NCBI GenBank assembly: GCA_913056125.1
Contig: CAJXNC010000007.1
Coordinates: 1-64,000, forward strand
Source: an uncultured Altererythrobacter sp.
GTDB taxonomy: Bacteria > Pseudomonadota > Alphaproteobacteria > Sphingomonadales > Sphingomonadaceae
Length of the DNA: 64,000 nucleotides
Direction of reading: 5' to 3'
The notes under the pieces are model-generated. The model saw only the letters and a list, made by a program, of their open reading frames with translations, had not been told where the DNA came from and did not search any database. Each line of letters opens with the position of its first letter. Positions within the stretch are counted from its first letter, which is position 1. Position numbers and translations under genes: made by a program. Shown here one piece after another: positions 4,951 to 7,691 of this stretch.

Positions 4951-6159
4951 TCAGGCGCGTTCGAGCAGGCCGAAGGCGACGAGGGTTTCCACCGTGTCGC
5001 GCAAGTCCTGTTCGTCCTCCACGCTGAAATCGCTGATCGCGAGGTCGCCCCTGGCCAGCCGTTCGGCAAGCTGCGGTGCCAAATCCTCGGCCAGCGGGAT
5101 GGAGGAACCGGCGATGGCCAGTTGCGGCTTCTCGCCCGAAACGTCGAGCGAATAGAGGATGCTTTCACGCAGCTTCAGGCGATCATCCCGCCCGATACCC
5201 TTGATAAGCGCATTGAGCGCTCCGCGCACGCGCGGCCCCTGGTCGCTGACGAAATTGCTGCCAAAGGCCGACAAGGTGGCCTCGAAATCGGCCTTCTCCC
5301 GAATCTTGTCGACCATGGCGTGGAACATGGCGGCATTCTCTTCGCGCCTGCTCTCGTCGAAATAGAGCGAACGCGGCAGCGAATGGCGCATTTCAGGGAT
5401 GCGCAGGCTCGCCTCTGCGACCGCTTCGAGCATGAACTCCGCCCAGGTCTGCACGAGGATACCCACGGTGATGTGCAGGCTTGCCTCGTCCCCCTCGGTC
5501 AGTGCGCGATGGGCCAGGCCCCGCGGCACGTAGAGGCATTGGCCGGGTTCGAGCACGAAGGTCTCCTTCAGCTCGCCGACATCGTCATGGTCCTTGCGGA
5601 AGTTCTCTCCCTTGTAAGGAAGCTCATCGCGCTGGCCGTAGATCTCCCACTTCTTGCGCCCGGAGACCTGCAGCACGAACACGTCATGGTCGTCATAGTG
5701 AATGCCGAAGCCATGCGCATTACTCGGCGTGAGGTAGATATTGGTCTGGATGCGCGCCCCGAAATCGCGCTCCAGCGAGAGGCAAAAGGTGTAGAGCTTG
5801 CCATCGGCAAAGTGCAGCTGCGGCAGGACGATAGTTGCCCCTTCACGGAAGTTGTCGAGCACCGATCCGCGATCGATCACGCCATTGGGATGCGTGTAAT
5901 CCTCCGGCGGCAGGCCCTGGCCTGACTTGGCCATGGTGATCGAAGTCGGCGGCAATTCGGAATCGGAGATGATCTCGTCGATCCGGTCTATGCTCAGCAG
6001 GTCGCCGAGTTCGGCCACGGGCTCCGGCGTGCAGTACCAGTCCCGCTCGTAATATTGCTCGAAGAACTCGTCCGGCGAGAGCGGCGCGATGAGGCTCTGC
6101 AACGGGCTGTGCCCGGTAACGATCATGGCAGTGGAACTCATTCCCGGTGGTACCGGCAC
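4951..6159 (-). CDS. JmjC/cupin-type 2-oxoglutarate-dependent oxygenase
   Basis: The 402-residue protein has the cupin-like JmjC fold of the RoxA/YcfD and MINA53/NO66 group. An N-terminal SPDEFFEQYYERDW segment leads to the metal-binding H-x-D (HYDDHD) followed by the distal histidine in PRGLAHRA, with the strand YLTPSNAHGFGIHYDD between. A helical C-terminal half follows. Family members hydroxylate protein side chains (YcfD acts on ribosomal protein L16 arginine). The annotated start is GTG 6159, 8 nt after the stop of the repeat-protein gene; ATG 6141 is an equally plausible start. This spacing implies co-transcription with a protein rich in Asp, Asn and Arg repeats, an obvious candidate substrate, though a ribosomal substrate is the conservative reading. 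Confidence 0.82.
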   Translation of the reverse strand: MPVPPGMSSTAMIVTGHSPLQSLIAPLSPDEFFEQYYERDWYCTPEPVAELGDLLSIDRIDEIISDSELPPTSITMAKSGQGLPPEDYTHPNGVIDRGSVLDNFREGATIVLPQLHFADGKLYTFCLSLERDFGARIQTNIYLTPSNAHGFGIHYDDHDVFVLQVSGRKKWEIYGQRDELPYKGENFRKDHDDVGELKETFVLEPGQCLYVPRGLAHRALTEGDEASLHITVGILVQTWAEFMLEAVAEASLRIPEMRHSLPRSLYFDESRREENAAMFHAMVDKIREKADFEATLSAFGSNFVSDQGPRVRGALNALIKGIGRDDRLKLRESILYSLDVSGEKPQLAIAGSSIPLAEDLAPQLAERLARGDLAISDFSVEDEQDLRDTVETLVAFGLLERA

Positions 6160-6167
6160 GCTCTCGC

Positions 6168-6617
6168 TTAGCGACCCGTCCCGCGACCGCGGCCATAACC
6201 GGCATTGTCCGAATCGTCGGAATCGGTCAGCCCGCTGCGGCCGTAGCCGGCGCGATCATTGGGATCGCTGTCGGTGCGCCCGGTACCCGAACCGCGTCCG
6301 CGGCCCGCAGCATCCGAATTGGAACCGGAATCGGCATCCGTGATGCCCGAACCGGACGACTTGCCGCCGCCGCGGCCATAGCCGGCGCGATCATTCGCAT
6401 CGGCATCGGTAAAGCCAGTACGTCCGTGACCGACGCTGTCATTGGGGTCGCTGTCGGAAACGCCAGTACGGCCATAGCCGGAACGGTCATTGGGATCGCT
6501 GTCCGTGCGGCCGGTGCGCTGTGCCTTGGCAGGAGAAGCGACCATTGCAGTCGCCGCAGCTCCCGAAACGAGTGCAACAAAGGAACGACGCGAAACGCGA
6601 CTGGCTTTCTTCGACAT
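6168..6617 (-). CDS. Tat-signal secreted protein with 16-residue DSDPND repeats
   Basis: A 149-residue protein with no family I recognise. It opens with a twin-arginine signal: S9-R10-R11-S12-F13-V14, then a hydrophobic stretch and an AKA site before Q33. The mature part is low-complexity and built from about six units with a period near 16 residues. The consensus is T/S-D-S-D-P-N-D-x-x-G-Y-G-R-x-G, with acidic clusters starting at residues 39, 55, 71, 94, 116 and 132. The D-x-D-x-N-D spacing resembles calcium-binding loops. Glycine, arginine and aspartate dominate and there is no cysteine. It lies 8 nt upstream of the oxygenase gene. Tat export would imply folding or cofactor loading before transport. 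Confidence 0.7.
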   Translation of the reverse strand: MSKKASRVSRRSFVALVSGAAATAMVASPAKAQRTGRTDSDPNDRSGYGRTGVSDSDPNDSVGHGRTGFTDADANDRAGYGRGGGKSSGSGITDADSGSNSDAAGRGRGSGTGRTDSDPNDRAGYGRSGLTDSDDSDNAGYGRGRGTGR

Positions 6618-6782
6618 GGCAAACCCCCGATTATGCCCCGGAACGCGCGTGCATCCCCTTTCTCAGCGACCTCGCGGTCTTGCATACCAGTTAGCCACCG
6701 AAAAGCGAACTTTGTGTGAAATTTTCGGATAGTTTTGCTGGAATGAGGAGAATGAATCATGCCCGGAGCATGATAGATCCCG

Positions 6783-7691
6783 TCAAAGCCACTCCCTATC
6801 GCGATACCATTGGGCCGTGGCGCGGATCCCCTCCTCGGTATCCACTTGCGCCTGCCAAAGCTGGGCAGGAACAGCGCGCTCGGTGCGGCAGACCCAGTCG
6901 GGATGGCACATGTAGCGCGCCCGGTCGGGGGTCAGCTTGGCGGATTTGCCACGCAGCAAACGGTCTGCCCGCGCAGCCAGCTTGAGCAGGGCAGCGGGCA
7001 TGGCAGGCGCCCAAACGTCTTTCCCCATGGCCTTGCCGATCAGGCGGGCCAGATCGGCATGGGCCCAACCGCCATCCGCACCGTCATCAGGTTCGAAGAT
7101 ACGGTGCAGCGAATGTTCCCCTTCTCGCGCAATGGCGAGCAGCAACCGGGCGAGATCATCCACCTGGATCATTGAGGCCCTGCCCGGCGGTGGCATCGGG
7201 ATCACGCCGAACTTCGCCGCGCGGTAGAGATCGAGCATCTCGGTGTCGCGCGGGCCATAGACGGCCGGCGGACGGACAATCGTCCAGTCGAGACCGCTGG
7301 TCTGCACCGCTTCCTCCGCCAGCCGCTTCGAGCGCCCGTAATCGGACAGGCCCGGCTCTCGCGCAGACAGGCTGGAAACACACACGAAACGCGTGACATC
7401 TGCGTCGCGCGCGGCCTGCAACACGTTCTGCGTACCCGCCAGGTTGCCCTTGAGAAAACCTGCTTCGTCGGGGGCATTGACGAGGCCGGCAATGTGCAGG
7501 ACCGCGTCGCTGCCGTCGACCAGTTGGAGGAGAGCGGCATTGTCATGCAGGTCACCGCGAATCCACTCTATGCCTTCGCGATGCTCCTGCTCCCGGCGGG
7601 TCAGCGCCCGGACCGCGATCCCCTGCTGCACGGTGGCATCCAGCACCGCCTGACCGACGAAGCCCGTCGCACCGGTCACGGCAATGGTCAA
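6783..7691 (-). CDS. NAD(P)-dependent epimerase/dehydratase (atypical/extended SDR)
   Basis: The 302-residue protein opens with the Rossmann dinucleotide motif VTGATGFVGQAV. It continues with DAVLHIAG, a catalytic serine region VSSLSA, and the active-site pair Y-x3-K (YGRSKRLAEE). These define the extended SDR family, close to NDUFA9-like and sugar epimerase proteins. The substrate cannot be told from sequence. The start is TTG 7691, whose TTGA overlaps the stop of proB, so it is translated behind glutamate 5-kinase. A sugar-nucleotide, flavonoid-type or quinone-related role are all possible. Confidence 0.85.
   Translation of the reverse strand: MTIAVTGATGFVGQAVLDATVQQGIAVRALTRREQEHREGIEWIRGDLHDNAALLQLVDGSDAVLHIAGLVNAPDEAGFLKGNLAGTQNVLQAARDADVTRFVCVSSLSAREPGLSDYGRSKRLAEEAVQTSGLDWTIVRPPAVYGPRDTEMLDLYRAAKFGVIPMPPPGRASMIQVDDLARLLLAIAREGEHSLHRIFEPDDGADGGWAHADLARLIGKAMGKDVWAPAMPAALLKLAARADRLLRGKSAKLTPDRARYMCHPDWVCRTERAVPAQLWQAQVDTEEGIRATAQWYRDREWL

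Follow-up and report, generated by a model that had tools for sequence, protein, structure and literature searches.

Paired genes for a JmjC-type oxygenase and twin-arginine repeat proteins suggest a candidate system for protein hydroxylation before export in alphaproteobacteria

The stretch of 64,000 nucleotides analysed here, which we call the window, comes from an uncultured Altererythrobacter sp. (assembly GCA_913056125.1, contig CAJXNC010000007.1, positions 1 to 64,000) and carries a gene for a JmjC-type oxygenase next to a gene for a small repeat protein with a twin-arginine (Tat) signal. A reading made from the sequence alone had placed these two open reading frames (ORFs) on the same strand, and both were confirmed at the positions given, on the minus strand (Table 1). 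Relatives of the two genes were observed to be present together or absent together in almost all of the genomes compared, which suggests an undescribed way of modifying proteins before export. We estimate a probability of roughly two in three that the pair represents a dedicated enzyme-substrate system in which the oxygenase hydroxylates the repeats of proteins that are then exported by the Tat system, with a proposed chemistry and function.

The sequence-only reading, which had suggested that the oxygenase modifies the repeats, had also named an oxygenase gene that mostly occurs without the repeat gene as evidence against it. The pairing survived this check in several genome samples, and the suggestion is supported by the co-occurrence: in each sample, every genome with the oxygenase subfamily was found to carry repeat-type genes as well. 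These samples were taken at the family, genus, class and phylum levels; they overlap and are not independent. In the family sample (298 genomes), 62 genomes match the oxygenase at an E-value of 1e-10, and 15 of them are set apart with scores of at least 199.7 bits, the next score being 84.3. Repeat proteins (E-value of 1e-6, up to 10 candidates scored per genome) were found in 15 of the 298 genomes, which are exactly the 15 with the oxygenase subfamily. Two of these 15 pairs are unlinked, as the repeat gene of G186 lies about 152 kb from the oxygenase gene and those of G297 are on another contig or at a distance of at least 480 kb. At locus L161 (G142:C1:518001-537900), about 9 kb separate an unlinked repeat gene from a more distant oxygenase match (G142:C1:536210-536506), and this proximity may be due to chance.

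The genus sample of 40 genomes, where all repeat candidates were scored, contains the oxygenase in 27 genomes, repeats in 28, both in 27 and neither in 12. The single genome with repeats alone (G952) is 74% complete and broken into 430 contigs, obg is also not detectable in it, and no other genome with repeats and without the oxygenase was found across the samples. Twelve of the 385 genomes in the class sample have an oxygenase scoring at least 268 bits (the next is 155.8), and repeats at an E-value of 1e-6, with up to seven candidates scored per genome, were found in 10 of these 12 and in none of the other 373. The remaining two were found to have an adjacent repeat gene (G311) and a weak, degenerate one (G497, E-value of 2.4e-8), which brings the count to 12 of 12. 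Six of 299 genomes in the phylum sample have repeats and all six have the oxygenase, which was looked for in these six, the other 293 not being scanned as a set. Chance pairing is unlikely given the unlinked cases, the enzymes with several repeat genes and the genomes that lack both. One genome (G620) has two oxygenase/repeat pairs.

A linked repeat gene was observed at 25 of 27 loci (25 distinct; L003 and L036 belong to the same genome, as do L007 and L041), with one to four such genes lying upstream on the same strand. No repeat gene was detected by the pattern used within the 20 kb read at L044 and L045. The gap between the oxygenase gene and the nearest gene with at least two units is 8-180 nt in 24 of the 25 linked loci and 575 nt in one, a count that includes the window and takes two genomes twice. 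The spacing of 8 nt originally read in the window holds with the GTG at 6159 as start codon; the next in-frame ATGs would give 26 or 41 nt. The repeat genes of the f22 genomes G835 and G860 adjoin the oxygenase gene in divergent orientation. When 579 ORFs from 34 loci were compared all against all, no third component emerged, as the oxygenase and repeat genes alone recur in more than four lineage groups. One cluster in four groups and another in three have as representatives ORFs that run antisense to a repeat gene and to the oxygenase gene, and the remaining clusters among the top 25 listed span at most two lineage groups.

The repeat protein of the window begins with MSKKASRVSRRSFVALVSGAAATAMVASPAKAQ and contains six strict units of the form [TS]D[SA]D..D..GxG[RH], of the type TDSDPNDRAGYGR. 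Shuffling its mature sequence 10,000 times gave a mean of 0.0008 units and a maximum of one. The sequence-only reading had described about six copies of D-x-D-x-N-D; the number of units was borne out, while four of them fit DxDx[ND]D, and conservation of the Asn does not extend to the wider family. Comparison with three relatives showed codon differences mostly at third positions (for example 27, 15 and 63 differences at positions 1, 2 and 3 over 146 codons), and this accumulation indicates a real, constrained gene. The twin-arginine motif, hydrophobic stretch and AxA are all present (SRRSFVALVSGAAATAMVASPAKA), and the Tat model TIGR01409 scores 13.5 bits, under its cut-off of 16.7. TatC is encoded by the window's own genome (G000:C7:66058-66705). 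Known repeat families were considered and rejected for this protein, as nothing in Pfam or NCBIfam matched above any cut-off: the Pfam search gave no family at an E-value of 1, thrombospondin type 3 and other calcium repeats included, and TIGR03979 (HxsA) did not match at an E-value of 1. A 190-residue ORF antisense to the repeat gene (6147-6719, plus strand) probably reflects repeat composition and high GC content and is not thought to be a gene.

Table 1. Features of the oxygenase and repeat protein genes in the window
Feature	Position	Strand	Remark
JmjC_2/ROX-type Fe(II)/2-oxoglutarate oxygenase, 402 aa, GTG start at 6159	4951..6159	-	
C-terminal domain, residues 328-402	4954..5178	-	label inferred from ROX alignment
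JmjC_2 domain core, residues 135-241	5437..5757	-	
Metal ligand H217	5509..5511	-	invariant in 30/30 aligned subfamily members
K169, expected 2-oxoglutarate-binding lysine	5653..5655	-	invariant in 30/30 aligned subfamily members
Metal ligands H154 and D156 (HYD)	5692..5700	-	invariant in 30/30 aligned subfamily members
Tat-signal repeat protein, 149 aa, proposed substrate	6168..6617	-	ORF; homologues found across co-occurrence samples
Repeat unit 6, TDSDDSDNAGYGR	6189..6227	-	
Repeat unit 5, TDSDPNDRAGYGR	6237..6275	-	
Repeat unit 4, long form, TDADSGSNSDAAGRGR	6294..6341	-	
Repeat unit 3, TDADANDRAGYGR	6372..6410	-	
Repeat unit 2, SDSDPNDSVGHGR	6420..6458	-	
Repeat unit 1, TDSDPNDRSGYGR	6468..6506	-	
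Twin-arginine signal, residues 1-32, core SRRSFVALVSGAAATAMVASPAKA	6522..6617	-	sequence; cleavage after AKA inferred

The wider repeat family was studied in 70 distinct ORFs with at least two units for the unit statistics, and in 76 when all loci are included. A twin-arginine signal followed by a hydrophobic stretch precedes the first unit in 76 of the 76 ORFs. Gly makes up 25% and Asp 14.5% of the repeat region, Glu and Lys are nearly absent from it, and spacers of two or five residues were observed in 411 of 415 units. A lipobox-like pattern occurs in 17 ORFs; three of these are truncated copies of the same genes, and at least two (L072 and L077) are spurious, the match lying in an N-terminal extension. 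Two or more Cys are found in the repeat region of 31 of the 76 ORFs, often 17-18 residues apart, which is about one unit. When ten relatives were compared with Pfam, PG_binding_1 was the sole family above a curated cut-off and was found in one of them (L093, 67.1 bits). An LxDx[DEQ]I motif was noticed shortly N-terminal of the Tat arginines in 11 of the 76 proteins (L091, L093, L094, L097, L098, L103, L124, L173 and L175); these belong to several alphaproteobacterial families, none to the genus of the window, and the motif is possibly an enzyme-recognition leader. Short TDxD-motif peptides with an LxDxDIxT start and no GxGR are encoded in f22 genomes at L180 (9538-9756) and L182 (9997-10236), where their genes adjoin repeat lipoprotein genes and are far from the oxygenase gene.

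The sequence-only reading had listed Arg, His, Asp and Asn side chains as targets of enzymes of this class. We tentatively favour Asp, within T-D-x-D, over the other candidates Arg and Asn: it is constant in the unit, Arg is missing from some partner proteins, and the Asn of P-N-D, tried as a target, is unlikely to be a general one as it is not conserved in the wider family. In the unit pattern the GxG frame and the first Asp are obligatory and two positions may be D or N. It fits 415 of 521 [TS]Dx[DN] sites in the 70 ORFs, and those two positions hold D in 415 and 414 of the 415 units. In G620 the second oxygenase gene (contig C15) has an upstream ORF that carries a Tat signal and units lacking Arg after GxG; these Arg-less repeats (SDYDPNDPIGGG and SDTDPVDPIGEG) lie on the minus strand of L145, within 5500-6900. 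The partner in G497 has TDSD and DSD stretches and no GxGR. The TDxD peptides of f22 count less for Asp, as the same genomes also have GxGR repeats.

Modification of the repeats on the Arg of G-x-G-R(-G) instead, in the manner of YcfD on uL16, is in our opinion rather improbable. This residue follows GxG in 392 of the 415 units and its Gly-rich surroundings resemble those of ribosomal targets. One report also describes a JmjC enzyme, BipG, which hydroxylates an Arg-derived ornithine in biphenomycins (PMC12707348). The partners without GxGR in G620 and G497 occur beside or with an enzyme of the same subfamily and argue against Arg, as does the near-constancy of Asp at the two scored positions, though these had to be D or N to fit the pattern.

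The oxygenase of the window is a member of the known ROX/JmjC_2 family by every testable defining feature. The full-length protein scores 93.8 bits against JmjC_2 (PF08007, cut-off 22), and the roles of H154, D156, K169 and H217 are presumed from NO66. Its predicted model matches the protein hydroxylases NO66, MINA53 and YcfD over most of its length, and it is 25% identical to NO66 when the structures are aligned. The ROX architecture was observed in full, with the JmjC domain followed by helical middle and C-terminal winged-helix domains, and the strands and helices of the C-terminal domain are arranged like those of the ROX winged helix. The repeats are most probably hydroxylated in the cytoplasm before Tat export, an order consistent with the lack of an evident export signal in the enzyme and with the twin-arginine signals of its proposed substrates.

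We propose that a cytoplasmic ROX-type JmjC oxygenase would act on one or more small repeat proteins with the help of Fe(II), O2 and 2-oxoglutarate. Each unit (T-D-x-D ... D-x-x-G-x-G-R) would be hydroxylated on side chains, most likely at the beta-carbons of the constant aspartates. After modification the proteins would be carried by the Tat system to the cell envelope, and some of them may be lipid-anchored there. The hydroxy-Asp repeats may bind metal, for example calcium or iron, which is the least certain step and a guess made from the Asp spacing and by analogy with AspH. A broader and less likely proposal is put forward tentatively: in several families of alphaproteobacteria the T-D-x-D arrays, those of unlinked client genes included, might form a new class of modified envelope protein in which beta-hydroxyaspartate binds metal and whose output would inform the envelope about oxygen, iron and 2-oxoglutarate in the cytoplasm.

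Several observations weigh against hydroxylation of Asp by a dedicated enzyme. Arg is more frequent in the units than a spectator residue would need, and the unit pattern, which fits 415 of the 521 sites, presupposes part of the answer. NO66 and MINA53 hydroxylate His and YcfD hydroxylates Arg, and we know of none of the three acting on Asp. With the limit on candidates in the family and class scans a real repeat gene (G311) was missed, so the finding of no repeats without the oxygenase could be an undercount. On the oxygenase tree, built from 30 repeat-linked rows and 24 of 33 outgroup sequences (nine were dropped), the repeat-linked label needs two changes and the 30 rows do not form one side of a branch. 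A single origin is not shown because 22 outgroup rows, as one supported group, sit in a fork with eight repeat-linked rows; the other two outgroup rows lie at the distant end. No gene with at least two units was found at the 33 outgroup loci within the flanks examined. NO66-like JmjC_2-type proteins (L125-L142) were noticed in many alphaproteobacteria, with about 130-156 bits against the subfamily profile and no repeat gene in the flanks examined.

The pair might also resemble a system for ribosomally synthesised and post-translationally modified peptides (RiPPs). The repeat protein would then be a precursor with the repeats as its multiple cores, from which small peptides are released after modification and export. 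The repeated cores, the several precursor genes per enzyme, the adjacency and co-occurrence of precursor and enzyme genes and the LxDx[DEQ]I motif are consistent with this. A distant homologue of the oxygenase, the one match found on plasmids, also occurs in a RiPP-like cluster of another kind (L236, Rhizobium etli plasmid CP007643.1, 3239-8541). This homologue (28% identical; PF08007, 83.9 bits) is clustered with a radical S-adenosylmethionine (SAM)/SPASM maturase-like protein (best TIGR04463, 213 bits, under the cut-off of 525), an HExxH peptide beta-hydroxylase (TIGR04267, 47.2 bits, cut-off 40), a 77-residue ORF, a hypothetical protein and a GNAT-annotated protein. No recurring protease or transporter gene was found beside the pair among the neighbours, which were clustered and not annotated, and the lipoprotein-like and peptidoglycan-binding versions suggest proteins retained in the envelope. 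The leader-like motif is also missing from the window's own lineage, and we regard a peptide-producing role as doubtful.

It is less likely still that the two proteins serve one process without being enzyme and substrate, for instance with the repeat binding metal while the oxygenase acts elsewhere under the same conditions. Joint occurrence alone does not demonstrate substrate status, but the protein-hydroxylase fold of the model, the several divergent repeat genes beside one enzyme and the restriction of unlinked repeats in the family sample to genomes with the enzyme speak against this reading. A ribosomal target (uL16, uL2 or uL15) with fortuitous adjacency, which the sequence-only reading had called fully possible, is very improbable and is rejected as the leading explanation: the fold and Pfam family are common to NO66, MINA53 and YcfD and no second PF08007 gene was found in the window's genome, but ribosomal proteins are universal whereas the subfamily is patchy and tracks the repeats even when unlinked, and six of the 15 family genomes also carry a second, more distant oxygenase match.

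The pair in the window is flanked by housekeeping-type genes, with methylase, sulfite reductase, DUF934 and 3'-phosphoadenylylsulfate (PAPS)-reductase-type (cysH) genes on one side and an epimerase-type gene, a proB-type kinase gene and obg on the other. None of ten neighbouring window proteins between 8 and 12228 matched any radical SAM family (E-value of 1e-5). All 12 genus members lacking the pair have obg, proB, the epimerase gene, cysH and cysI in an unchanged order. The epimerase and cysH matches, which enclose both genes in the window, are separated by 13-807 bases in these genomes. No match to the repeat protein or to the oxygenase was found in their 12-14 kb stretches, and the epimerase-cysH gaps contain no [TS]D[SAN]D or H[YF]DxHD motif in any frame. 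On a tree of obg from 39 genomes, six changes explain where the pair occurs, and supported branches force at least five of them; a sign test on gain and loss is limited to five pairs and cannot reach 0.05.

To our knowledge, protein hydroxylation in bacteria is documented mainly for a few ribosomal targets and peptide natural products. If hydroxylation of the repeats is correct, a JmjC oxygenase would serve a set of exported proteins, in a system spread across several alphaproteobacterial families, and a function would be offered for proteins matching no curated family beyond JmjC_2. The enzyme, proposed substrate and candidate sites are named specifically enough to be testable. The sequence-only reading could match the pair to no described system. 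Among the papers listed in the literature search, which largely does not extend to subscription papers, we found neither a description of the oxygenase/repeat pair nor a paper joining twin-arginine with JmjC.

Comparison with known systems indicates that the arrangement of an oxygenase with exported repeat clients is what looks new. NO66 (RIOX1), MINA53 (RIOX2) and YcfD/RoxA have a universal ribosomal target, unlike the patchy subfamily of the window, which is tied to exported repeat proteins. S227 was considered as the His-contacting Ser of NO66 and MINA53 and was dropped, as alignment puts this contact (Ser421/Ser257) at the invariant G233. This Gly is not private to the repeat-linked subfamily and is also found in 15 of 18 NO66-like homologues.

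JmjC-type enzymes do act on ribosomal peptides: BipG of biphenomycin is reported to be a JmjC gamma-ornithine hydroxylase (PMC12707348), and PbsQ to add 16 Da when the arginase is present (PMC12257519). BipG/BpmG and PbsQ resemble the window pair in having a JmjC or cupin-like oxygenase beside a ribosomally made substrate, with the addition of 16 Da to a side chain described for them, and differ in their larger clusters with a multinuclear non-haem iron-dependent oxidase (MNIO), radical SAM enzyme and protease. The substrate of BipG is an ornithine in a short core, and the accessible text on biphenomycin-type systems does not mention a Tat repeat protein. HxsABCD also places a repeat protein (His-Xaa-Ser) beside a modifying enzyme, the enzymes being radical SAM maturases and not a JmjC oxygenase; L093 matches TIGR03979 (HxsA) at 34.3 bits, under the cut-off of 121.65, whereas the window protein does not match. 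In TvgA, a short repeated motif of the precursor is reported to be modified repeat by repeat by the radical SAM enzyme TvgB (PMC9062424), with another enzyme class and another motif (TVGG). AspH, a 2-oxoglutarate oxygenase reported to hydroxylate Asp/Asn of extracellular-type domains (PMC6817910), is like the proposed enzyme by description and differs in being human and acting in the lumen of the endoplasmic reticulum on epidermal growth factor-like domains. SmaO/SmaX, from a different type of cluster (graspetide), comprise an Asp beta-hydroxylase and a follow-on enzyme, and a bacterial ribosomal peptide is reported to be beta-hydroxylated on Asp in this system (PMC13097080); they are set beside the window pair by description.
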